The notes under the pieces are model-generated. The model had not been told where the DNA came from. It did not search any database and was given only the letters and a program-made list of their open reading frames with translations. A program made the position numbers and the translations under genes. Shown here piece by piece: positions 52,180 through 64,000 of a DNA stretch of 64,000 bases; the stretch's first letter is position 1, and each line of letters opens with the position of its first letter. Source of the stretch: Litoreibacter arenae DSM 19593 (GTDB lineage Bacteria; Pseudomonadota; Alphaproteobacteria; Rhodobacterales; Rhodobacteraceae); NCBI RefSeq assembly GCF_000442275.2, contig NZ_KE557314.1, forward strand, positions 186,001 through 250,000, read 5' to 3'.

Positions 52180-52291
52180 CCTCTACTCACAGCGAAGATG
52201 ATGGCACCCAAATATAATGCACAGTTCAGATCGGCATCGCGATCAAACGCAAATTGCATGTCGGCGGCACAAAAATCAGCTATGTAGCCTG

Positions 52292-52924
52292 ATGGATCCG
52301 ATGCCGCCGATTCCCCGCGACGATTTGATCGTCTGCACGCATTGCGATGCGGTCTTCACGCTTGAGCGCCCCGCTGCCGGCCAACGGGCGAAATGCGCGC
52401 GTTGCGGGACGGTGCTGATCACACCAAGGCGCAAGGCGGGATTGCAGATCATTGCCGTTTCCGTCGCAATTACGATTCTGATCATAGCCGCCACGATTTT
52501 TCCGTTCCTCTCGATCTCTGCGGCGGGGACGTCGAACTCCGTGTCAATTCTGGATGCGGCCCTCGCATTCAGTGACGGGCCGTTGGTGGCCCTCACACTG
52601 GCAACCGCTGCATTGATTATCTTCGTGCCGCTGGCGCGTGTGCTGCTGACGATATACGTGCTCGTTCCCATCGTGCTCGACCGACCGCCCGCGCGAGGCT
52701 CTACCCAAGCCTTCCGGCTGTCGGAAGCGCTGCGCCCTTGGTCGATGGCGGAAATATTCGCACTCGGCTGTGCAGTGGCCCTGATCAAGATCAGCGACCT
52801 TGCCGATGTTGCATTCGGGCCAGCTTTCTGGATGTTTTCGACGCTGGTTGTTTTGGTTGTAGTGCAGGACAATTTCCTGTGTAGGTGGTCGGTATGGAAG
52901 TCGCTGGACAAAACCCAAGCATAA
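52292..52924 (+). CDS. PqiA half-protein (first copy)
   Basis: The 210-residue protein has a zinc-ribbon-like start (CTHCDAVF...CARCGTVL) and four hydrophobic helices of the PqiA family. In E. coli, PqiA is about twice this size, with two such modules in one chain; here they are separate genes. PqiA works with PqiB and PqiC in MCE-type lipid transport between the membranes. The ATG at 52292 is chosen as the family-length start, but upstream in-frame ATGs exist and no strong ribosome-binding site helps. It overlaps the next gene by 31 bp. Confidence 0.8.
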   Translation: MDPMPPIPRDDLIVCTHCDAVFTLERPAAGQRAKCARCGTVLITPRRKAGLQIIAVSVAITILIIAATIFPFLSISAAGTSNSVSILDAALAFSDGPLVALTLATAALIIFVPLARVLLTIYVLVPIVLDRPPARGSTQAFRLSEALRPWSMAEIFALGCAVALIKISDLADVAFGPAFWMFSTLVVLVVVQDNFLCRWSVWKSLDKTQA

Positions 52925-53538
52925 AAAGCGCGCGTGATTTGGGCGTCGTCGCTTGCACAAGATGTCTGCAGGTCTGGCCTGCGGGAACACCGTCATGCGC
53001 CCGATGCGGCAGCACCATTGTGGCCCGCGACGAAAAAAGCCTGCAACGTGTCTGGGCGCTGTGGCTGGTCGGCCTCATGTGCTACGTCCCGGCGAATATG
53101 TATCCGATGCTGCAAACGCGCACCTTGCTGAGCGTGCAGGAAGACACCATCGTCGGCGGCGCTGTCGAATTAATGCACCACGGAGCCTTCGGTATTGCGT
53201 TGATTATCCTTATAGCGAGCGTCGTTATCCCGCTCGGCAAGTTCATCGCGATCGCATTTCTCGCCATCTCGGTGAAACGACCATCAATGGTGTCAAACCA
53301 CCATCGGCAACTGATGTATGAGGTTGTCGAATACATTGGGCGCTGGTCGATGATCGACATCTTTGTGGTTGCGATCATGTCGTCTCTCGTACAATTAAAT
53401 ACCCTGGCGGCAGTAAACCCCGGCCGCGCAAGCCTGTTTTTCGCGCTTTCCGTGATCTTTACCATGCTCTCGGCGCAAGCCTTTGACAGCCGGATGATAT
53501 GGGATGCGCAGCGGGCCGAGAGGAATATCGACCGATGA
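52894..53538 (+). CDS. PqiA half-protein (second copy)
   Basis: The 214-residue protein has the same design as the preceding gene: a CxxC zinc-ribbon start (CTRCLQVW...CARCGSTIV) followed by four hydrophobic helices (WLVGLMCYVPANMYPML, then IALIILIASVVIPLGKF and LIDIFVVAIMSSLVQL-type segment). YVPANMYPM is a PqiA mark. Two PqiA modules in adjacent overlapping genes replace the double-length protein of enterobacteria. The stop overlaps the pqiB start as ATGA. The start at 52894 is preferred to a GTG at 52885. Confidence 0.8.
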   Translation: MEVAGQNPSIKSARDLGVVACTRCLQVWPAGTPSCARCGSTIVARDEKSLQRVWALWLVGLMCYVPANMYPMLQTRTLLSVQEDTIVGGAVELMHHGAFGIALIILIASVVIPLGKFIAIAFLAISVKRPSMVSNHHRQLMYEVVEYIGRWSMIDIFVVAIMSSLVQLNTLAAVNPGRASLFFALSVIFTMLSAQAFDSRMIWDAQRAERNIDR

Positions 53539-55619
53539 ACGATACACCAACGCCGGTAACCATCGAGCCCGCGCGCAAGTTATTTCTTTCAAACGCATCG
53601 TTCGTCTGGATCATCCCGCTGCTGGCCTTGATTATCGCCCTTGGCGTGGCCTGGCAGTCCTACAACTCCCGCGGACCGCTGATTACGATCGAGTTCGAAA
53701 ACGGCGCGGGCATAAAAACGCGCGAAACCGAACTCCGTTTCCGCGACGTGGCGGTCGGTGTGGTGGAGGACGTCAAGTTCGCCTCCGGCCTCTCAGGCGT
53801 CGTGGCACATGTCCGGTTGGACAAAGACGTGGCACCCTATGTCGATGTCGGTGCGAGTTTCTGGGTCGTCCAGCCCGAGCTGAGTGCGCGAGGCGTCAGT
53901 GGTCTGGAGACGGTTTTGTCGGGTGTGTATATAGAAGGCACGTGGGACGGCGATATCGGCCCGTCGCAGTCCAGCTTCAAGGGGCTCAAGGACACACCTC
54001 TTTATCGCTACGGCAAAGAAGGGTTGGAGATCACGCTTCGCACAACGGCGGGCGGCAGCCTGACGGATGACAGCCCGATCACCTATCGCGGGATCGAGGT
54101 AGGGCGTCTGGGGAAGGCGCAAATCTCCCAGCAAGGCAGTTTCGCCGTCGCGGAGGCCATCATCTATCATCCGCATAGCCGCCTGATCTCGCCAACGACG
54201 CGGTTTTGGGACACCTCTGGCTTCACGTTTTCCGTGGGTCCGAGCGGAGCGGAAATCAACTTTTCATCCATCGCGACGCTGGTCGGTGGCGGGGTCACAT
54301 TTGAGACGTTCGTCTCCGGTGGCAGTGCCGTCTCTGACGGCTACAGTTTCGAGGTCTTTCAGGACGAGGCATCGGCCCGTGACAGCGTGTTCAATGCATC
54401 GGAAGCAGAGCCTTTGCAGATGCGGGTCGTGTTTGACGAGAACATTTCCGGCCTGAGCGTTGACGCACCGGTCGAGCTAAACGGTTTGCAAATCGGTCGG
54501 GTTGAAGGTCTCTCCGGCGTCATAGACGCGGATGCGTTCGGGGACCAGCGCGTCCGCTTGAGTGCATTGATCAACATCCAGCCCGCGCGCTTGGGCTTGC
54601 AGGACGACGTCTCTCCCGAAGCGGCCCTGGAGTTCCTGTCGCGCCAGATCGAAGACGGATTGCGCGCCCGTCTGGCATCCGCCAGCCTGCTGTCAGGCGG
54701 GCTGAAAATCGAATTGGTCGAGGTTGAGGACGCCCCACAATACGTTGTCCAGACGGGCGAGGGTATCATCCCGATCATCCCCAGCACCAATAACGAAATT
54801 TCTGACGTTACCGCGACCGTGGCTGGTGTCGTTTCGCGTATCAACAACCTGCCAATTGAGGACCTGCTCAACAGCGCAATCCAGTTCCTCAACAGCGCCG
54901 ACGCTTTGATATCGGATCAGGATTTACGTGAAACGCCTCAGGTCGTAAAAGCCCTGCTAGGCGATTTCCGTGAAATCGTAGCGTCCGAAGATGTGCAGGA
55001 CATACCCGTAAAGCTGAACGCCTCGCTTGGCCGGTTCGAAACATTGCTGGCACAACTCGAAGAAGAGGCGTTTGCGACGCAACTGGTTGCAGCGGTGAAC
55101 GCAGCGGCGACGGCGGCCAATGGCGTCAACGCGTCTGTCGAAGGCGTGCCTGCCCTGATTGCGCAGCTTGAAGCGGTCGCCGAGAAAGCCGAAAATCTGC
55201 CACTGGAAGATTTAACGAAGCAGCTAACCACGCTGACCGCCTCCGCAGATGCTATCCTCGGAACCGAAGCCGCGAAGCAACTGCCCGCCGACCTCGGCTC
55301 CGCCCTCAACGAGATCAACGCAACGCTGCAAGAACTGCGCGAAGGCGGCGCGGTGACAAACATCAACGCCACACTCGATTCAACGCGCAAGGCCGCAGAC
55401 GCGGTGGCGGTTTCGACGCAGGATCTGCCCGCTTTGGTTGAACGTGTTCGCGTCGTGCTAAACCAAGCCAACGAAACCATTGCAGGCTACAACAGGGGTG
55501 AAGCCTTGAGCAGAGACGCGCAAAGTGCGCTGCGCGACATATCGAAAGCGGCCGAGGCAATGACGTCTCTTGCGCGTATGCTCGAACGCAACCCAAGCTC
55601 ACTAATTCGAGGACGATGA
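53535..55619 (+). CDS. pqiB: PqiB, MCE-domain lipid-transport protein
   Basis: The 694-residue protein has a single N-terminal membrane helix (FVWIIPLLALIIALGVAW) and several MCE/MlaD domains in a row (first about 45-150, starting ITIEFENGAGIKTRETELRFRDV, key part FENGAGIKTRETELRF), followed by a long alpha-helical C-terminal region rich in Ala, Leu and Gln, as in E. coli PqiB, which forms a syringe-like tube from the inner membrane. It carries phospholipid or other hydrophobic compounds across the periplasm. The start overlaps the preceding stop as ATGA and its own end overlaps the next start. Confidence 0.88.
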   Translation: MNDTPTPVTIEPARKLFLSNASFVWIIPLLALIIALGVAWQSYNSRGPLITIEFENGAGIKTRETELRFRDVAVGVVEDVKFASGLSGVVAHVRLDKDVAPYVDVGASFWVVQPELSARGVSGLETVLSGVYIEGTWDGDIGPSQSSFKGLKDTPLYRYGKEGLEITLRTTAGGSLTDDSPITYRGIEVGRLGKAQISQQGSFAVAEAIIYHPHSRLISPTTRFWDTSGFTFSVGPSGAEINFSSIATLVGGGVTFETFVSGGSAVSDGYSFEVFQDEASARDSVFNASEAEPLQMRVVFDENISGLSVDAPVELNGLQIGRVEGLSGVIDADAFGDQRVRLSALINIQPARLGLQDDVSPEAALEFLSRQIEDGLRARLASASLLSGGLKIELVEVEDAPQYVVQTGEGIIPIIPSTNNEISDVTATVAGVVSRINNLPIEDLLNSAIQFLNSADALISDQDLRETPQVVKALLGDFREIVASEDVQDIPVKLNASLGRFETLLAQLEEEAFATQLVAAVNAAATAANGVNASVEGVPALIAQLEAVAEKAENLPLEDLTKQLTTLTASADAILGTEAAKQLPADLGSALNEINATLQELREGGAVTNINATLDSTRKAADAVAVSTQDLPALVERVRVVLNQANETIAGYNRGEALSRDAQSALRDISKAAEAMTSLARMLERNPSSLIRGR

Positions 55620-56185
55620 CTATGGGTTTTACAAAACCAACCCTTCTCGGGGCAGCCTTCATACTCTCGGCTTGCGGGGCAACGCCCGACCTTTACACAG
55701 TCACTCCGCCTCAGGTTGAGCAGACCCAACGCATCGCCTTTCGCGCCGTTGAGGTTCGGGATGTTTCCTTGCCTACATACGCCAGTGCGAACGAGATCGC
55801 TGTTGAGGATCAAGACGGCAAGCTGGTCACCGATGCCGCAGTCTTATGGGCAGACAACCCGGAACGCGCAATCGCGCTGGAACTGACGCGAAACCTCGCC
55901 CGCTTGACCGGCGCGCAGGTAGCATCGGAGCCATGGCCGTTCGAGGCATTTCCCGACGCGCGATTGGACGTGCGTTTTGAAAGCCTGATCGCTGGTGCAA
56001 ACGGCCAGTTCCGCGCGTCCGGGCAGTTTTTCGTGAGTGTCGACGATGGTGGGCGAGAACGCTCGGGCCTTTTCGATATAGCCGTGCCCTTCGATCCGGC
56101 AAGCGGCCCCAAAGCCATCGCAGCGGCACGGGGCAGAGTCATCTTGGATCTGGCAGTCTACATCGCAGAAAACGGGCTGCGTTAA
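55616..56185 (+). CDS. pqiC: PqiC, outer-membrane lipoprotein
   Basis: The 189-residue lipoprotein has a signal ending in the lipobox FILSACGA (Cys near 20), and a PqiC/YmbA (ABC transport auxiliary lipoprotein) domain (TPPQVEQTQRIAFRAVEVRD, key part QRIAFRAVEVRDV, and NRLARLTGAQ-type NLARLTGAQVASEPWPF). It is the outer membrane partner of PqiB. It overlaps the pqiB stop by four bases, completing a pqiAABC operon. Confidence 0.85.
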   Translation: MTMGFTKPTLLGAAFILSACGATPDLYTVTPPQVEQTQRIAFRAVEVRDVSLPTYASANEIAVEDQDGKLVTDAAVLWADNPERAIALELTRNLARLTGAQVASEPWPFEAFPDARLDVRFESLIAGANGQFRASGQFFVSVDDGGRERSGLFDIAVPFDPASGPKAIAAARGRVILDLAVYIAENGLR

Positions 56186-56210: not shown

Positions 56211-57248
56211 CTAGCTGACCTGTCGGATAACTCTCTCGAACACGCGGGCCGTATCACGCCAGCTTGGCAAGCTCTTGGCCCGTTCCAATGAAAGCTGTTG
56301 AAACTGCGCTGCAATCTCCGGCTCTTCGATCAGGCGTCGTAGCGCGTTCGCGAATGCTGCCGGATCGTCCGGAGGCACCAGTATACCAGCCTCGCCGACG
56401 GTCTCAGGGACGGCACCTACATCGCACGACACCACTGGCAAGCCGTAAAACATCGCTTCGCTCAGCACCATGCCGTAGCCCTCGTAGCGCGTAGCCAAGG
56501 CAAAGATCGACGCGGCATTAAAGTGCTCGGCAAGCTCAGGACCGTCCAGCTCTCCCGCGAATGTAACCCTTTGAGACAATCCAAGCTCGCGGCATTGAGT
56601 GCGCAGTGCATTCGCCGTGTGTTGGTCATGAGCTTTGCCAACGATCACGGCGTTCCAGTGAAGGTCTGTAATGAGTGACAATGCATCAAGCAGAACATCA
56701 TGTCCCTTGCGCCGTGCGAGAAGACCAACTGACAGTATTAGGGGCGGGTCAGCTCTTGAGGCATTCAACACCGGCCTGTCAAATCCCGGCGGGGCCACAG
56801 TAATCGACGCAGGATCGGCGCCAAAATCGCGCGCAAGAACCTCCGCTGTGTGTGGGCTGGGAACGACGATGTGGGCGGCAAAACCCAGCGCCTGCGCCTC
56901 GTTCTCACACAAGAAGGCGGCTCGCTCCGGTGCCAGCCCTGTTTCCAATCCAAGCGGATGATGGATCATGGCTAGGATCGGCGCTTTAACTTGAGCAAGC
57001 CCTGCGGGGTCGATCGCGCCGAAGACCAAGCCGTCCAGAATAATCGGTTGATGCGCCGGAACCGCGTTCAAGGCCGCGAGCGTCTCGGCCATGTCAGCGA
57101 CCGTCGGGTCGGGAAAGCTATCGGGCAGTTGCAGATGCGCCGTCTTCACGCCAATCTCGTTAAGAACACGCAAAACCGTGGCCTCATACAAAAAGCCGCC
57201 CGTGCGGCGATCCTTGTCACCCGGTATCGCGAAAACCGCCCGTGTCAT
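56211..57248 (-). CDS. GT4-family glycosyltransferase
   Basis: The 345-residue enzyme has a GT-B fold with GT4 marks: FAIPGDKDRRTGGFLYEA at the start, LSVGLLARRKGHDVLLDAL in the middle, TRYEGYGMVLSEAMFYGLPVV with the EX7E glutamates, and a late DPAAFANALRRL. It transfers a sugar from a nucleotide sugar to an unknown acceptor, at the cytoplasmic side. Its ATG overlaps the stop of the ABC permease gene by four bases, so it belongs to the long minus-strand operon and probably modifies a lipid or glycan made by its neighbours. Confidence 0.85.
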   Translation of the reverse strand: MTRAVFAIPGDKDRRTGGFLYEATVLRVLNEIGVKTAHLQLPDSFPDPTVADMAETLAALNAVPAHQPIILDGLVFGAIDPAGLAQVKAPILAMIHHPLGLETGLAPERAAFLCENEAQALGFAAHIVVPSPHTAEVLARDFGADPASITVAPPGFDRPVLNASRADPPLILSVGLLARRKGHDVLLDALSLITDLHWNAVIVGKAHDQHTANALRTQCRELGLSQRVTFAGELDGPELAEHFNAASIFALATRYEGYGMVLSEAMFYGLPVVSCDVGAVPETVGEAGILVPPDDPAAFANALRRLIEEPEIAAQFQQLSLERAKSLPSWRDTARVFERVIRQVS

Positions 57249-58780
57249 GTCAATTGCTCACTTGCATAGATCGCCAGAACCATCCGCTCCGCCCAGAGGA
57301 CGGCAGCATACATCACCACCGCAACCAGCGTGATCGCGACGATGCATGACCAAAGCATGTTGTAGTTTGATGTTGTCGACGTCAGCGCCATCAACACTCC
57401 AATGCCCTTTCCGGTCGCGAGCCACTCGGTGGTCGTTACCGCCAGAATTGCTGCCGGAACCGCCATCTTGGCCGACGCAAATAGGGCCGGCATCATTGCG
57501 GGTATCTGTGCGGCACCCAGCACCCTGACCGGACCCGCGCCATAGGTGTGGAACACGTCGATGATCTGCTGCGGCGCTTGTCGCAGGCCTTGAAGGCAAG
57601 CCACGAAAGTCGGGAAGAAGATCATGACCGCGACCACGGTTATCGTTCCCGTAGCGCCACGACCCAAGGCCAGTACAATCAATGGCGCAGTCGTAATGAT
57701 GGGTATCGAGCGCAAGGCCACCGCGACAGGCAGCACCACACGGGTTGCCTTGGGGAAAAGTATTACGGCAACAGCAAGCCCCGCACCCAACAGCAGCCCG
57801 GACAGGAAGCCGGGTATGGTTGCAGCCATGGTTTCTTTCAGGGCCACCCACAGCGTCAGGCGGGCGTCGGCATCTGCGGCCAGATATCTAACTACATCGC
57901 CGGGTCGCTTGGCGAAGAAGCGGTTCAGCTGAAACACATCCATAGCGACCTGCCACAGCAGAAGCAAAAACAATGCGGCCGCTACCATCTCGGCGATCCC
58001 GGGCCAGATGTTACGACGCGTCGGCGGCTTGGGCGGCGACAGGATAATGACCGGTGCGTACCCCACAAGCCGCTCACCAATCCGACCGACCAGCGCATAG
58101 GCAAGCACGGCAACGGTTGCTGAAATGAGAGCCAGCGACCATGTTGCATCGACATCCAGACCGCGCATCGCTCTGAGTGTCAGAACACCAAGACCGCGTT
58201 CCGCCCCCGTAAATTCCCCGATCATCGCACCTAGGAAGGCAGCAGGGGCGGCAATTTGAAGGCCCGCGAAGAGATAGGGCAAACTTGCACGTGCCCGGAC
58301 AGTAATCAGCGTCATGAAACTGCCGCGTCCATACACAGACATAAGATCAGACCAGCTTCGCGGCATGGCCCGCAGTCCAACAAGCAAAGCGAGATATGTC
58401 GTGTAATAGACCGCCAGTCCGGCCAATGCTATTTGCGGCGCAGAACCAGGTCCGGAGATGACCCGCAGGATAGGACCGGTAGCCACGAGCGGCAGGCAGA
58501 AGATGACCAATGCACTGGCTGAAACAACGCGCTCCGCTCTAGGTTGCATCGTGACCAGACCAGCCATGATAACCGCCGCAATGTTTCCCCAGACAAAGCC
58601 TAATGCAGCGTTCTGCGCAGTGGTTAAGGTTGCACGCACCAAGAGGCCGGAGTTTGATGAAACAAAAGCCCAGACGCCGGACGGGCTGGCGACCAATACG
58701 CTTTCTGAGAAAACGTGGGCCGCCCCTCCCCAAAGCGAAATCGCGACAAGGGCAGTCATGAACCCGGCCCATATCTGCAT
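57245..58780 (-). CDS. Double-permease ABC transporter membrane protein (SsuC/TauC/ThiX type)
   Basis: The 511-residue protein contains two complete permease domains in tandem (about 1-255 and 256-511), about twelve helices in all. Each half has an EAA-type cytoplasmic loop (LPYLFAGLQIAAPAAFLGAMIGEF, key part GLQIAAPAAFLGAMIGEF, in the first; AKMAVPAAILAVTTTEW in the second). It resembles permeases for sulfonates, taurine or thiamine precursors, which are usually homodimers of single units. The gene abuts the ATPase gene with no gap. Confidence 0.85.
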   Translation of the reverse strand: MQIWAGFMTALVAISLWGGAAHVFSESVLVASPSGVWAFVSSNSGLLVRATLTTAQNAALGFVWGNIAAVIMAGLVTMQPRAERVVSASALVIFCLPLVATGPILRVISGPGSAPQIALAGLAVYYTTYLALLVGLRAMPRSWSDLMSVYGRGSFMTLITVRARASLPYLFAGLQIAAPAAFLGAMIGEFTGAERGLGVLTLRAMRGLDVDATWSLALISATVAVLAYALVGRIGERLVGYAPVIILSPPKPPTRRNIWPGIAEMVAAALFLLLLWQVAMDVFQLNRFFAKRPGDVVRYLAADADARLTLWVALKETMAATIPGFLSGLLLGAGLAVAVILFPKATRVVLPVAVALRSIPIITTAPLIVLALGRGATGTITVVAVMIFFPTFVACLQGLRQAPQQIIDVFHTYGAGPVRVLGAAQIPAMMPALFASAKMAVPAAILAVTTTEWLATGKGIGVLMALTSTTSNYNMLWSCIVAITLVAVVMYAAVLWAERMVLAIYASEQLT

Positions 58781-59545
58781 TTAAACGGCAACTCCGAGCG
58801 CACGCAAAACCTGCGCCTTTCTAGATTGAAACTCATGGCCGTCGATTAGCTTTGCAGTGCGTGGCTCGTCGAAGGTCACCGACAAATCCGCCACGACCGT
58901 CGCAGGACGTTCCGAAAGGACGATGATCCGCTCGGAAAGCAGCACCGCTTCGTCCACGGAGTGTGTGACCATAATCGTCGTGGCCGCCCTTTTTCGCCAA
59001 AGCGGTGGCAACTCGGCATTCAGGCGAGCCCGTGTCAATGCATCGACCGACCCGAAAGGTTCGTCCAGCAAAAGCAATTCCGGCTCGGACACCAGACTTC
59101 GGGCGATAGCTGCACGTTGGCGCATCCCGCCCGATAGCTCCGCCGGGCGGTGTGTCTCAAACCCTGACAGGCCAACCAGCGCAATCAGATCATCCACCCC
59201 GTTATCGGATTTGCGGGCCAGTTTCGCGCCCAAGGCGATATTCTCACGGACAGTGCGCCAAGGCAGCAGCGCTGGGTCTTGGAACGCCATCGACAACGCG
59301 CCACGCTTTGCTACCTCTTTCGGGCTTTGAGAGCCGATACACACGCTCCCTGCCGAAGGCAAATCGAGACCCGCAATCAAACGAAGAAACGTCGACTTGC
59401 CGCATCCTGACGGCCCTACCAACGCAGTCGTCTGCCCCGCGATGAACGTAATATCCAGCGGTCCGAGAACTGCTGCGCCGTCAAATTGCTTGGTCAGCCC
59501 CGCGCACCGGATTTCTTTGCCAAGCACAATGCTAGGCGTGCGCAT
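58781..59545 (-). CDS. ABC transporter ATP-binding protein (SsuB/ThiZ type)
   Basis: The 254-residue ATPase has Walker A (GPSGCGKST), the LSGGMRQRAAIARSL signature, Walker B (LLLLDEPFGSVDALTR) and the H-loop in VTHSVDEAVLLSERI. It couples ATP to import with the double permease. The ATG at 59545 is chosen because the domain begins there; the upstream open frame lies inside the binding-protein gene in another frame. The 14-bp overlap with that gene indicates coupling. Confidence 0.9.
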   Translation of the reverse strand: MRTPSIVLGKEIRCAGLTKQFDGAAVLGPLDITFIAGQTTALVGPSGCGKSTFLRLIAGLDLPSAGSVCIGSQSPKEVAKRGALSMAFQDPALLPWRTVRENIALGAKLARKSDNGVDDLIALVGLSGFETHRPAELSGGMRQRAAIARSLVSEPELLLLDEPFGSVDALTRARLNAELPPLWRKRAATTIMVTHSVDEAVLLSERIIVLSERPATVVADLSVTFDEPRTAKLIDGHEFQSRKAQVLRALGVAV

Positions 59546-60527
59546 CTTCAAGAAGCGAGCGATCCCACAAGTCCGGGCCGACCTCCCTGCCCAACAGGGC
59601 GAGCGTTTCGACATTGGCGGCGACCGTCTCGTCGGTGAACCATCCAAACCCGTTCGCCGCCGTAAGGTCCGAGAACATGAGCGGCACCTGCCGCTCTGCC
59701 TGCAATACTTGCGTCGGCAAATCGAGGCCTGCATCGGGGAACATATCAACAGTCAGCACAGCCGCAGCCTTTGTGTCTGCCAAATAGTCATTCCAGCCAG
59801 CGATTTCGCCTTTCAGCAAACCCACGAGCTCCGCCCGCCGGTTCGCAATGCTGTCCTCCGTCGCAATGTAGGTTTGCGAATGCACGGAGTACCCGTGATC
59901 GGCCATCAGCATCGTTGTGTTGTCGACGCCTTGTATGGTCATCGCTACGGGTAGATCTGTTTCCCAACACAGCAAGCAATCCACCTGTCCGCTTACCAAC
60001 GGTGCGGGGTCGTATTGCGTCGGGACGATCTCAATCTGGTTAATATCCACATCGTTTAGCGCACATAGGGCCTGCAAAACCGGCGTGTTCGAGACGGACA
60101 TGCCGATCTTCTTGCCAACCAGATCAGCAGGCGCGTTCACCGGATTTGCCGACAACGAGGCAATCGCAAACGGGTTCTTTTGCATTGCCACCGCAATGAT
60201 CTTGAACGGCGCACCCTGAGCAACTGCGGCGGCTGTGTAATCCGCGGCCGAGATGCCCACCAAAGCCGTGCCAGAAACCACAGGAGGCTCAACCGGTGCG
60301 TTCGGCCCGCCCTGTGTCAGCGAAACCGCAAGCCCTTGATCCGACCAATACCCTGATTTCTGGGCAATGTAGCTTCCGCCGAATTGAACGGAATGGAGCC
60401 AAGACAGCTGAAAATTCACCTGTTTCCGGTCGTCGGCACCCGCAGGTAATCCAAAGGACGCAGCGCCCAAGGCCGCGGCACCTGTGCTTAAAAAAGAGCG
60501 TCGGGTTGGATGCATGAGATATGTCAT
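59532..60527 (-). CDS. NMT1/THI5-type ABC substrate-binding protein
   Basis: The 331-residue protein starts with a twin-arginine-like signal (MHPTRRSFLSTGAAALGAAS). The domain has SWLHSVQFGGSYIAQKSGYW (key part QFGGSYIAQKSGYW), AADYTAAAVAQGAPFKIIA and MLMADHGYSVHSQTYIAT, marks of the THI5/NMT1 group that binds thiamine or riboflavin precursors, sulfonates or related compounds. The ligand is not clear. Start at 60515 (second Met) is an alternative. With the next two genes it forms an ABC importer inside an envelope-biogenesis operon. Confidence 0.85.
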   Translation of the reverse strand: MTYLMHPTRRSFLSTGAAALGAASFGLPAGADDRKQVNFQLSWLHSVQFGGSYIAQKSGYWSDQGLAVSLTQGGPNAPVEPPVVSGTALVGISAADYTAAAVAQGAPFKIIAVAMQKNPFAIASLSANPVNAPADLVGKKIGMSVSNTPVLQALCALNDVDINQIEIVPTQYDPAPLVSGQVDCLLCWETDLPVAMTIQGVDNTTMLMADHGYSVHSQTYIATEDSIANRRAELVGLLKGEIAGWNDYLADTKAAAVLTVDMFPDAGLDLPTQVLQAERQVPLMFSDLTAANGFGWFTDETVAANVETLALLGREVGPDLWDRSLLEDAHA

Positions 60528-60540
60528 AAAACGTCCATGA

Positions 60541-61428
60541 TTAGTTTTGAGGAACGGTGCTTGAGTGATTTGGCCTCAGCAAGAGCGCAACGGCGGGCAA
60601 AGCGGCGAGCATCATCATGGCACCATACGCGATGCCCGTCGCGATACCGGCGCTTGCGCTAGCGCCGATTAACGGGAAAAGGCCCGCCGCAGCGCCTTCG
60701 CGCCAGCCCCAGCCGCCAATGGATAAGGGGATAAGCATTGAAGACAAGATGAGCGGAACGAGGGTGAACGCATCATTTACCGGTATGACCGTGCCAGTGG
60801 CTCTCGCACAGGCGTAGAAACTGAAAATCAGGAGCCCCGCAATCATGAGCGTATAGCCGACCAAGCGCGGCTTTTTGAGGAGGTTCAAGATCAATCGCAC
60901 GTACCGCGCGGTGGACGATTGCCGCCTGACCAACACCATCGCGCCAGCCGCTACGACAACGAACGCAAGGACCCCAAGCCATGCCATTTCCGGCCACGCG
61001 ATACCACCAGGTGCCAGCAAGGCGAAGGTGAAGCCGACAGCCATCACAAGCAGCATGGATATCTGACCGATCAATCGCTCTGCCGCCACGGACTGAGCCG
61101 CCCGCACCAAATCCCCCTGTTGTCGGGCTCGGTATGCACGACCGACATCGCCCACGACCCCACCGGGTAAGACAAGATTGGTCAACTGCGCCAGATAATA
61201 CTCCGACATTGCCCGCGAAAATGGCAATTCGATCCGCAACGCTTGGGCCACGATTTGCCAGCGTCGCGCCATCAGCACCGTGATCGCGGTCAAGCTGATC
61301 AGGGCAACGCCCAGCCAACTGAGGTCCGCACCGCGCAGCTTTTCGGCGACGCTTTTCGCGTCTGCCCACCAGATCAGAGCGGCCAACACCGTAAGCGACA
61401 CGGCGAGCTTCAACAGCCACCGGATCAT
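60541..61428 (-). CDS. LPG synthase-TM / UPF0104-type membrane protein
   Basis: The 295-residue protein has about eight hydrophobic helices and the AglD/MprF-like lysylphosphatidylglycerol synthase transmembrane region pattern (YLAQLTNLVLPGGVVGDVGRAYRARQQ, key parts LTNLVLPGGVVGDVGRAYR, and PLSIGGWGWREGAAAGLF). These proteins flip or transport lipid-linked precursors or help polymer export; no soluble synthase domain is present. The ATG at 61428 overlaps the sulfatase-type stop as ATGA. Function is inferred only at family level. Confidence 0.75.
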   Translation of the reverse strand: MIRWLLKLAVSLTVLAALIWWADAKSVAEKLRGADLSWLGVALISLTAITVLMARRWQIVAQALRIELPFSRAMSEYYLAQLTNLVLPGGVVGDVGRAYRARQQGDLVRAAQSVAAERLIGQISMLLVMAVGFTFALLAPGGIAWPEMAWLGVLAFVVVAAGAMVLVRRQSSTARYVRLILNLLKKPRLVGYTLMIAGLLIFSFYACARATGTVIPVNDAFTLVPLILSSMLIPLSIGGWGWREGAAAGLFPLIGASASAGIATGIAYGAMMMLAALPAVALLLRPNHSSTVPQN

Positions 61429-63038
61429 TGGACCGCTCCGACCAGCTTTGTCGGCTCGCTGAAGGCGCTGAGGAAATTGTCTCGGAACGTGTCCATGCGC
61501 CGTGCAGGAACCTCCGCTTGCGGGATCAGGCCGTCTGTCCAACCCCAGCTGTCTACCCGTGCGATCACGTCGGCTGGGCCAATCATGTGAACCGGCACAT
61601 CGCGATTGTCACTGCCAGCGACGAAACCCGCAGCCTGATGATCGCCGACGACGACGACCAGAGGTGCTTCCTCACCCAACCGGGCCACATGCGAGAAGGT
61701 CGCTTGCAGCGAATAGTCTATAGCCTTGCGGTAGGCCTCGCGCACGTCATCGCGGTTCTTCCACAGCTCGCGCGGGGTCGGACCCCGTGCCGCCATCTCA
61801 TTGAAGATCGTGCCGTCCCCGACCTTGTCCCATTCGACCATTTCCGGAACCGGCACCCACGGGGCGTGAGACGAAATGAGGGCAATCTGTACAAAGTCAG
61901 GTCGCCGGTCGTCCGGCAGCAACGTCGGATACGTCGCCAAGGTGAACTGATCAGGCATAGTGACCCAGTTGAACCGGTCGCCCTTATAGGGAATGTCAGC
62001 AGCCGCGAAGACCAACTCGAACCCCATCTTGCTGCTTTCGGGCCAAGCCATAGTAATAGCGGGCATTATTGCGGCGGTCCGGTAGCCTGCCTCCTGCGCG
62101 AAGTGAAACAGCCACTTGTGGCCGCTCGCCAGCATGGCGTTGTATCGGCCATGATCGCTTGTCCAAAGGCCGCTGGCCAGCGTGCCATGCGCCAGCCAGC
62201 TTTGACCTCCGGCAGTCGGTGATGTCAGCCATCCGCTACGCATGGAGAAACCTGCCCGTTCAATCTCGCGTTGCCCTGCACTCAAAGTTGCAAGATGCGA
62301 CGGCGCGTATAGCGGATTGTCGAAACTCGCACGGCCGTAGCTTTCTATGTAGATCAGGATCACGTCACGCCCTTCCAGCCGGTCAAGCAAACCGGCGTCA
62401 CTGGCGAAGTGGTCCGATTTGGCCTCTTGACTGAAACGCACGAGATCGACCGCAGTTCCTTGCATCTCGACCATACGCTTTACCGCCAGGCGTGACGTCC
62501 ACGCGGTGCCCGGTGGGCTACGTTCGAACTTCCAGTAATCCAGATGGTGTCCGGCATCGGCAGCGGCCCAGCCGCCAAACCCAAGCGCCGCAAATACCGC
62601 CGCCCCCCGCGCAAGTGCGGGCACTTTGAGCGACGTCCAAGCACCCAAGCTGAAAGCTGACCCAAGAAACACCAGAAAAAGAAAGCCCAAGCCCAACGCT
62701 ACCGCGAGATAGGCCAGTATATGTCCAATGCTCTCGCTGAGAAGCCCGATACCCGCTTCAATCAAGAACGCGTCCAGTATCGGGTTGAACGCTCGATTAT
62801 ATGCCGTGAACATTCCGAAATCCGCCAGCTTCAGAAAGGTCACCGCAGCAACAAGCGCGGCAAGCGTCCAAATGACCCAGCGCCGAGGACCAATCGCGAT
62901 CATCGCGAACAGCAAGGCTGGAAGCTCTAACGGAAACTTGCTCAGGGCAGAGATATTCATCGTGCCGGGATGGTTTGGCAACACCAGCGCCAGAAACAGA
63001 AAACCCGCCGCAACGGAGAGAGAGATAGATTTCTTCAT
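61425..63038 (-). CDS. Membrane sulfatase-fold (LTA synthase-like) enzyme
   Basis: The 537-residue protein has five hydrophobic segments (residues 1-170) followed by an extracytoplasmic alkaline-phosphatase-superfamily domain. Marks include DVILIYIESYGRASFDNPLY (metal Asp/Glu and active-site Ser/Thr region, key part VILIYIESYGRAS), HGTLASGLWTSDHGRYN, and VVVVGDHQAAGF with the C-terminal Asp-His. This is the layout of lipoteichoic acid synthase-like and phosphoglycerol or phosphoethanolamine transferases (OpgB, EptA groups). The donor and acceptor are unknown. It is coupled to its neighbours by ATGA overlaps on both sides. Confidence 0.8.
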   Translation of the reverse strand: MKKSISLSVAAGFLFLALVLPNHPGTMNISALSKFPLELPALLFAMIAIGPRRWVIWTLAALVAAVTFLKLADFGMFTAYNRAFNPILDAFLIEAGIGLLSESIGHILAYLAVALGLGFLFLVFLGSAFSLGAWTSLKVPALARGAAVFAALGFGGWAAADAGHHLDYWKFERSPPGTAWTSRLAVKRMVEMQGTAVDLVRFSQEAKSDHFASDAGLLDRLEGRDVILIYIESYGRASFDNPLYAPSHLATLSAGQREIERAGFSMRSGWLTSPTAGGQSWLAHGTLASGLWTSDHGRYNAMLASGHKWLFHFAQEAGYRTAAIMPAITMAWPESSKMGFELVFAAADIPYKGDRFNWVTMPDQFTLATYPTLLPDDRRPDFVQIALISSHAPWVPVPEMVEWDKVGDGTIFNEMAARGPTPRELWKNRDDVREAYRKAIDYSLQATFSHVARLGEEAPLVVVVGDHQAAGFVAGSDNRDVPVHMIGPADVIARVDSWGWTDGLIPQAEVPARRMDTFRDNFLSAFSEPTKLVGAVQ

Positions 63039-63757
63039 TCAGCACGCCTCAGCAGAAACCACGTATCGGCTGCGAATGACCAAAGCAGAAGCAGCGACGC
63101 GCCAAGAAGAACCGGATACATCAACCACGGCGGGGTAAGAGGACAGAGCAACACGATCAGCGCCGCGATCTGGATCACGCAGATTGCTTTGCGCCGGAAG
63201 TTTTCGGGAAGCGTCCGTCGCAACTTGGGCAAGAGGATGCTTGCAGCCACAAACGCGTATCGCGCAAACCCCAAGATGAGTATTTCAGGCCCGACGCGGC
63301 CACCTGCCAACAGTATCAATGCCAAGACGGCCCCAAGAAGCGCGTCAATCTCCATGTCGAACCGCGCCCCGAATGCGGATGAAAGACCTGATCGGCGCGC
63401 GAGCCAGCCGTCCAGCCCGTCTAACGCAAAGGCAGCGAGCGCAATCAGGAACACCCACCAACTCTCGGAGGCGGGCTCGATGATTGCGGCGCACAGGACA
63501 GAAATCATCGCCGCACGGATCAGAGTAACCACATTGCAGAAACCCAGAGTGTCATGCGGATAGTTTAGCAATACCCCCCGCAAGGCGAAAACTGAAATCA
63601 CGAGGAAAACGGCCAACGGGGTTGCGACGTTGTCAAACAAGGCAGCAGACGCGATGCCCACCAATACCAGCAGACCGACGGCCAACATTGCCAACGGCAC
63701 CGCAGGGCCAGCTAACCGCTGCGTTTTCAACGTCTGCTGTGGATCGCTGTTGATCAC
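63035..63757 (-). CDS. CDP-alcohol phosphatidyltransferase-family membrane protein
   Basis: The 240-residue protein has six or seven hydrophobic segments and the CDP-alcohol phosphotransferase signature DGLDGWLARR...GARFDMEID (DG-x2-AR-x8-G-x3-D-x3-D), complete. It joins a CDP-activated alcohol to a second alcohol to form a phosphodiester, probably a lipid head group. The start is GTG at 63757 with AGGA upstream at long spacing. Its stop overlaps the sulfatase-type start as ATGA. It is the first complete gene of the minus-strand operon in the window; the gene upstream is cut by the window edge. Confidence 0.85.
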   Translation of the reverse strand: MINSDPQQTLKTQRLAGPAVPLAMLAVGLLVLVGIASAALFDNVATPLAVFLVISVFALRGVLLNYPHDTLGFCNVVTLIRAAMISVLCAAIIEPASESWWVFLIALAAFALDGLDGWLARRSGLSSAFGARFDMEIDALLGAVLALILLAGGRVGPEILILGFARYAFVAASILLPKLRRTLPENFRRKAICVIQIAALIVLLCPLTPPWLMYPVLLGASLLLLWSFAADTWFLLRRAE

Positions 63758-63853
63758 GGTTTGTGTATCCTCGTTTCCCGTGGTGAAGACCTAGCTCAAC
63801 TACGGAAAATAGCTACTCCAACTATCAGAGCAGGTCAGCGCTTTCCCGCCTCA

Positions 63854-64000
63854 TCACGCGACAGTGACTACACCGTGCAAGGGACGATGGTCCGATGCCG
63901 CGTTCGTATCCGGGTTATCGACGACCTCGACACGCTCCACGCGACCCGGTGCATTGGTCAGAATCCGGTCCAACGGCAGAATTGGCAAGCCCGTAGGAAA
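63854..64000 (-). CDS. C-terminal end of an endonuclease/exonuclease/phosphatase-family protein (5' end outside window)
   Basis: The last 48 codons of a gene on the minus strand run from the window edge to a TGA at 63854-63856. The visible tail includes RILTNAPGRVERVEVVD and ASDHRPLHGVVTV, the C-terminal SDHRP motif typical of the EEP fold (metal-dependent nucleases and phosphatases). The 96-bp gap to the CDP-alcohol phosphatidyltransferase gene makes co-transcription possible. Substrate is unknown. Confidence 0.7.
   Translation of the reverse strand, partial: FPTGLPILPLDRILTNAPGRVERVEVVDNPDTNAASDHRPLHGVVTVA

Follow-up and report, generated by a model that had tools for sequence, protein, structure and literature searches.

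Cyanopterin and limipterin are known pterin glycosides. Huimycin is a 7-deazaguanine glycoside (PMC7439116), and pyrimidine vitamins and flavins are taken up by NMT1-type importers such as ThiXYZ and RibXY (PMC4418817). An operon that brings a glycosyltransferase together with an importer of this family was analyzed in Litoreibacter arenae DSM 19593, at the end of a 64,000-nucleotide stretch (contig NZ_KE557314.1, positions 186,001 to 250,000) that is referred to in its entirety as the window. The operon also includes genes for a CDP-alcohol phosphatidyltransferase, a sulfatase-like membrane transferase and a flippase-like protein. We consider it probable (about 0.6) that its product is a glycosylated heterocycle, so far undescribed, that is destined for the cell envelope, and that here the heterocycle, designated X, is imported and not made. 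The cargo would be a building block for the envelope operon because a de novo pathway takes the importer's place in relatives. A literature search for the gene combination, for SCO6650 (a Streptomyces coelicolor protein related to one of the pathway proteins) and for a link between osmoregulated periplasmic glucans (OPG) and pterins found no description.

The window comes from a contig of 1.1 Mb; the genes were named by Pfam cut-offs and the neighborhood was extended past the window edge. The operon comprises eight genes that all run along the minus strand, and the seven inside the window all score above their Pfam cut-offs. In order of transcription, with the short names used below, the genes are:

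63854..64000 in the window, minus strand: endonuclease/exonuclease/phosphatase-family hydrolase (EEP), 242 aa, PF03372, E 5e-14; first gene, only its 3′ end inside the window (full gene at window-equivalent 64582-63854, L002:12583-11855)
63035..63757, minus strand: CDP-alcohol phosphatidyltransferase (CDP), 240 aa, PF01066, E 5e-18
61425..63038, minus strand: membrane sulfatase-like transferase of the alkaline-phosphatase superfamily (SUL), 537 aa, PF00884
60541..61428, minus strand: UPF0104/LPG_synthase_TM flippase-like membrane protein (FLP), 295 aa, PF03706, E 4e-34
59532..60527, minus strand: NMT1/THI5-type solute-binding protein (SBP) with an N-terminal signal-like stretch, 331 aa, PF09084, E 8e-37
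58781..59545, minus strand: ABC importer ATPase (ATP), PF00005, E 2e-32
57245..58780, minus strand: fused double permease (PER), 511 aa, two BPD_transp_1 stretches, E 6e-37
56211..57248, minus strand: glycosyltransferase (GT4), 345 aa, PF13692/PF00534

Three junctions, CDP/SUL, SUL/FLP and PER/GT4, are ATGA overlaps. FLP and SBP are separated by 13 nt, SBP and ATP overlap by 14 nt, ATP and PER are spaced by 0 nt, and EEP lies upstream of CDP across a gap of 96 nt. The initial annotation, made from the sequence of the window, had described these envelope and importer genes as joined by ATGA overlaps or short gaps; all of them are present, and the measured junctions agree with that description. 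A solute-binding protein, a BPD_transp_1 permease and an ABC ATPase encoded in one unit make up an NMT1/THI5-type ABC importer. The position of EEP is the same in Tateyamaria, Ruegeria, Litoreibacter and Jannaschia.

Comparison with relatives showed that GT4 is almost always paired with one of two supply modules. One is the NMT1/THI5 importer; the other is a biosynthetic set consisting of a pterin-synthase-like (PTPS-like) protein, a RibD-type reductase, a BchC-like alcohol dehydrogenase (ADH) and a methyltransferase (MT), to which GTP cyclohydrolase II (RibA) and a phosphatase are often added. On an Agrobacterium pAt plasmid, homologs of the CDP, FLP, SUL and GT4 proteins of the window are present, the importer is absent, and there are genes for a RibD-family protein, an S-adenosylmethionine (SAM) methyltransferase, a "6-carboxytetrahydropterin synthase", a zinc alcohol dehydrogenase and RibA. 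The biosynthetic set is also found in other Rhodobacterales, where an inositol-monophosphatase-like phosphatase (IMP) and an FkbM methyltransferase often accompany it. The two modules were never seen together at one locus (0/133 loci surveyed, some of them redundant).

Whole genomes were compared next. SBP, the PTPS-like gene and SUL were searched for in 395 genomes, where they were detected in 33, 34 and 53, respectively, and GT4 was searched for in 149 of these; all p-values are nominal, since the tests assume an independence that the genomes do not have. SBP or the PTPS-like gene was present in 25 of the 26 genomes with GT4 and in none of the 123 without it (Fisher p 2e-27). The 26th genome is 73% complete and has an importer permease beside GT4 at the end of a contig. 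Both supply genes occurred in one of the 26 (p 2e-5), that of Actibacterium sp. 188UL27-1 (L104 7000-10000), in which a frameshift follows the signal stretch of SBP and the middle of the permease is deleted. No PTPS-like gene was found in 32/32 and 27/30 importer-type genomes tested, nor SBP in any of eight biosynthetic-type genomes (Actibacterium was the ninth genome in that search). The pairing was also put to the test as a prediction. Six loci have GT4 and no supply module within ~10 kb; elsewhere in the genome, four of these have the PTPS-like gene and one has SBP. SUL co-occurs with SBP in 28 of its 53 genomes (p 2e-23), with the PTPS-like gene in 17 (p 5e-8) and with either in 42 (odds ratio 56, p 4e-30), and genomes with SUL and both supply genes are fewer than expected (3 observed, 9.0 expected, p 5e-4). 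The importer had earlier been taken as part of an envelope system; it does belong to the operon, and its direct partner is GT4 and not the CDP-alcohol enzyme.

The exchange of modules could be followed on a tree of 101 GT4 proteins (a quick search, with SH-aLRT support only), after supply genes that were not local to a locus had been resolved by genome-wide searches. The deep branches are of the biosynthetic type, the importer type is nested among them, and within the importer clade there are again proteins of the biosynthetic type. About six changes of supply type are needed, four of them forced by well-supported branches; shuffled labels required 21.8. Ruegeria lacuscaerulensis is a case of an in-place swap. 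Its locus reads EEP-CDP-SUL-FLP-GT4-PTPS-MT-RibD-ADH-IMP, the three importer genes are missing from between FLP and GT4, and a genome-wide search found no SBP elsewhere. The comparison shows that importer and pathway replace each other as the partner of GT4. Given the near one-to-one match of GT4 and supply, the roughly six swaps and the broken importer where both occur, the importer most likely brings in the compound that the pathway makes. Interchangeability of modules is not identity of cargo, and the importer could carry a chemically different acceptor that GT4 also uses, so that importer-type and biosynthetic-type end products would differ; SBP resembles binders of formylaminopyrimidine (FAMP), thiamin and pyrroloquinoline quinone (PQQ), and NMT1-type proteins bind diverse ligands. 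We regard this as quite improbable, since a single constant cargo agrees better with the swaps on the tree, with the importer decayed beside the pathway and with how strongly SBP is conserved. No other member of the operon is conserved as well: the window SBP is 65-84% identical to 45 relatives (SUL, 41-66%), which suggests a fixed cargo. SBP paralogs at 46% (G048:C7:12839-13798) and 35% (G820:C111:2277-3233) identity were also noticed and are possibly importers of related compounds.

The genes of the biosynthetic set point to GTP as the origin of X. Its RibA has the zinc cysteines and is nearest to E. coli GTP cyclohydrolase II, and the RibD-type protein, with a RibD_C reductase domain, is nearest to 2,5-diamino-6-ribosylamino-pyrimidinone phosphate reductases; the pair can thus be classified as GTP cyclohydrolase II and RibD. 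The PTPS-like protein groups with SCO6650 of S. coelicolor (PDB 3d7j; E 3e-33), with which it has an HGA motif in common. SCO6650 reportedly lacks PTPS activity and retains a pterin-like pocket. In PTPS-I/II/III enzymes (QueD, PTPS and folate type), a catalytic Cys or Glu precedes an HGH zinc motif (PMC5041015). An alignment of 10 PTPS-like proteins of the present kind, from three classes, showed an invariant FGPAQ-x-x-HGA motif and no catalytic Cys. Assignment as QueD or a classical PTPS was rejected because HGA replaces HGH and the catalytic Cys is missing.

The binding protein leads to a similar class of compounds. The predicted SBP model (pLDDT 90) has as its nearest solved structures thiamin-bound 4nmy (Z 30.7) and FAMP-binding ThiY 3ix1 (Z 30.5), followed by Thi5 (Z 27-28) and PqqT (Z 22); sulfonate and PQQ binders come after those of the thiamin, FAMP and hydroxymethylpyrimidine (HMP) type. 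With the pathway genes pointing to GTP and the SBP fold independently nearest to pyrimidine binders, a GTP-derived aminopyrimidine or pterin is the most likely cargo. The initial annotation had listed vitamin precursors, sulfonates or similar small compounds; a sulfonate importer was considered and rejected in favor of this cargo class, to which the relatives' pathway genes and the SBP fold have narrowed the proposal. An ordinary importer of the thiamin precursors HMP or FAMP, located in an envelope operon by happenstance, would agree with ThiY and Thi5 as the nearest solved relatives of SBP. It is very improbable, considering that identity to ThiY/Thi5-type structures is only ~18-22%, that no riboswitch of any Rfam family, including that for thiamin pyrophosphate (TPP), was found in eight loci searched, that no thiamin gene was seen in the annotated neighborhoods, and that the importer is substituted by RibA, RibD and PTPS genes, which do not make HMP.

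The operon is kept as a block across Rhodobacterales and also in Devosia. A retrieval with GT4 gave 80 named loci, and most of them, those of Devosia and a Mesorhizobium included, have the order CDP-SUL-FLP-SBP-ATP-PER-GT4; the arrangement is beyond chance because the order recurs in dozens of other genera. These results answer the question of co-occurrence across genomes that the initial annotation had raised: the genes are not scattered. Plasmids carry the operon in Tateyamaria omphalii, Dinoroseobacter shibae, Alloyangia and Paracoccus (the last without FLP); in D. shibae DFL 12 the importer type is on a 72-kb plasmid. In Roseicitreum the operon is split into two nearby pieces, and Paracoccus alcaliphilus p402633 has SUL alone, the operon being absent. 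The many plasmid copies could be thought to mean that envelope genes came together by chance on mobile plasmids or chromids. Such an explanation is hardly credible when order and overlaps are kept in dozens of genera, GT4 and supply correspond one to one, and the genes are conserved across Actinomycetota and Proteobacteria; the co-occurrence counts already contradict it.

Outside the Alphaproteobacteria, the gammaproteobacterium Thiodictyon has CDP, SUL and GT4 homologs alongside the X pathway. A Streptomyces plasmid carries together genes for a CDP-alcohol phosphatidyltransferase, ADH, PTPS-like protein, GT4, MT, FLP, creatininase and RibA, with a sulfatase match elsewhere on the plasmid that bears this cluster; a second Streptomyces plasmid has the PTPS-like gene alone. 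Since CDP and FLP or SUL accompany GT4 and the pathway in Thiodictyon and Streptomyces, a single old system is favored over a local island. Two observations on actinobacterial assemblies are recorded here. A contig of Microbacterium kunmingense (L130) has an alphaproteobacterial-looking CDP-FLP-SBP-ATP-PER-GT4 set, by horizontal transfer or contamination, and Nonomuraea gerenzanensis (L186 6001-9000) has a distant SBP (~40%), an ATPase and two permease matches, with no GT4 nearby.

The CDP active-site motif, DX2DGX2ARX8GX3DX3D, is complete in the window protein, which is one of the 85 of 86 distinct sequences with the motif intact, and the EX7E motif of GT4 is present in 101/101 sequences; GT4 most likely glycosylates the supplied compound. 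SUL gave no match to the PDB by sequence, as a single query or as a profile. Its predicted model (pLDDT 93) is nearest to LtaP/LtaS, GacH, EptC/MCR and BcsG (Z 18-21), and residues E232, S280, H391, D466 and H467 are invariant in 44 sequences. SUL has the N-terminal transmembrane helices and the alkaline-phosphatase-superfamily domain, with Glu, Ser/Thr nucleophile and Asp-His metal ligands, of LtaS/EptA/OpgB-type enzymes. The LtaS/GacH/EptC/BcsG-like fold and the invariant residues suggest a role in transferring a phospholipid head group to a glycan or lipid.

The genes mdoG/mdoH were found in 39 of the 133 loci, including D. shibae and deep biosynthetic-type loci without SUL, and in Methylosinus mdoH is beside the X genes. 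In six loci of the deep biosynthetic type (L056, L057, L058, L059, L060 and L183), mdoH lies beside ADH-PTPS-GT4-MT, and L056 and L058 have an OpgC-like acyltransferase. Judging from such neighbors, a link of the heterocycle to periplasmic glucans is possible. Cytochrome b561 adjoins the system in many loci. The window operon itself is not adjoined by mdoG/mdoH. Its downstream neighbor is a convergent operon (52217-56185, plus strand) that looks like pqiA-pqiA-pqiB(MCE)-pqiC; the last gene, the sole one tested there, encodes a PqiC-like lipoprotein (PF03886). Beyond EEP, the next gene is on the opposite strand and encodes a YceI-like protein by sequence.

Several observations weigh against the proposed system. 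Six genomes hold SBP and the PTPS-like gene together: Actibacterium (importer broken), Roseicitreum, G722, and the metagenome-assembled genomes (MAGs) L120, in which the importer is seen as a permease end only, L125 and L145; PTPS-like matches in the MAGs may include contamination. Over all 395 genomes, SBP and the PTPS-like gene are statistically independent. Thioclava sediminum (L114) has an intact GT4 with no SBP or PTPS-like gene detected genome-wide, the one unexplained exception. At L167-L175 the SUL/CDP/FLP module has neither GT4 nor supply genes close by and is mostly accompanied by EEP or cytochrome b561. Of the 34 genomes with the PTPS-like gene, 17 have no SUL at E 1e-60. Because SUL/CDP/FLP occur alone and half of the PTPS-positive genomes have no SUL, lipid attachment of X is not required.

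These last two points are also what would be expected if GT4 made a soluble pterin or pyrimidine glycoside (a cofactor, a pigment or an exported product) that is never bound to lipid or glucan, with CDP/SUL/FLP as a neighboring module sharing regulation only. Cyanobacteria and green sulfur bacteria are known to have soluble pterin glycosides, and the deep biosynthetic-type loci have GT4-PTPS-ADH-MT with no SUL, CDP or FLP within ~10 kb. This explanation is nonetheless unlikely in view of the association of SUL with supply (odds ratio 56, p 4e-30), the presence of CDP and FLP with GT4 and the X pathway in Streptomyces and of CDP and SUL in Thiodictyon, and the ATGA coupling within the window operon. 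We infer attachment to a lipid or to periplasmic glucan. The initial annotation had proposed that the imported molecule serves as the head group of a new phospho- or glycolipid; this proposal is supported in part. That the cargo feeds the envelope operon is indicated by the pathway that substitutes for the importer in relatives, and the head-group fate is the more conjectural part, as the CDP/SUL/FLP trio also occurs without GT4 and supply.

Taken as an envelope system, the operon could operate as follows; what we infer in this scheme is the nature of X, each of the enzyme steps and the attachment. SBP, the ATPase and the double permease would take up X, a small GTP-derived compound of the aminopyrimidine/pterin class. 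In relatives that make X from GTP, RibA would open GTP to give 2,5-diamino-6-ribosylamino-pyrimidinone phosphate, a RibD-type reductase would convert it to the ribityl form of the pyrimidinone, and the SCO6650-like PTPS homolog, the BchC-like dehydrogenase, the methyltransferase and the phosphatase would finish X. GT4 would glycosylate X in the cytoplasm. Either this product or a dedicated phospho-head group would then most likely be delivered to the outer face of the inner membrane by CDP, FLP and the LtaS/GacH-like transferase; a periplasmic glucan is a plausible acceptor. A tentative extension, possible and well short of even odds, is that a phospholipid-linked glycosylated GTP-derived heterocycle is assembled and transferred to an envelope glycan (periplasmic glucan or another), and that the heterocycle is either made or taken from producers, as a public good decorating another strain's envelope. 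The system joins an importer of undefined cargo, an orphan PTPS subfamily (SCO6650, which has a solved structure) and an LtaS-like transferase, and the analysis predicts concretely to which class the cargo belongs. If this is true, there would be a new envelope molecule whose core is a heterocycle of the pterin or riboflavin-pathway-like kind, and marine bacteria would be connected with one another as makers and importers.

Each of the known systems resembles a part of this one. The glycosyltransferase of pterin glycoside and huimycin systems is likewise paired with enzymes for a pterin-type heterocycle, but the PTPS of the present biosynthetic set has neither the catalytic Cys nor the HGH motif, and we know of no CDP-alcohol enzyme, head-group transferase or importer alternative in those systems. 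In the Streptomyces SCO6650-type cluster, the PTPS homolog (PDB 3d7j) matches the PTPS-like protein of the biosynthetic type, down to the HGA motif; the window does not have those biosynthetic genes and has the importer in their place. ThiXYZ/RibXY-type importers share the SBP family and the nearest folds, while the present importer is linked to GT4 and envelope genes, has a fused double permease, and is associated with no thiamin or flavin mononucleotide (FMN) riboswitch in the eight loci searched. OPG loci may be related through mdoG/mdoH, which adjoin the system in nearly a third of loci; the neighbor of the window operon is instead the pqiABC-like operon. Finally, SUL is like LtaS, EptA, OpgB, GacH and BcsG in its fold, its N-terminal membrane helices and its metal and nucleophile residues. 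It differs from LtaS, which has a threonine at the position of the invariant serine of SUL, and from the whole group in that a CDP-alcohol phosphatidyltransferase and a GT4 of its own are encoded alongside it.

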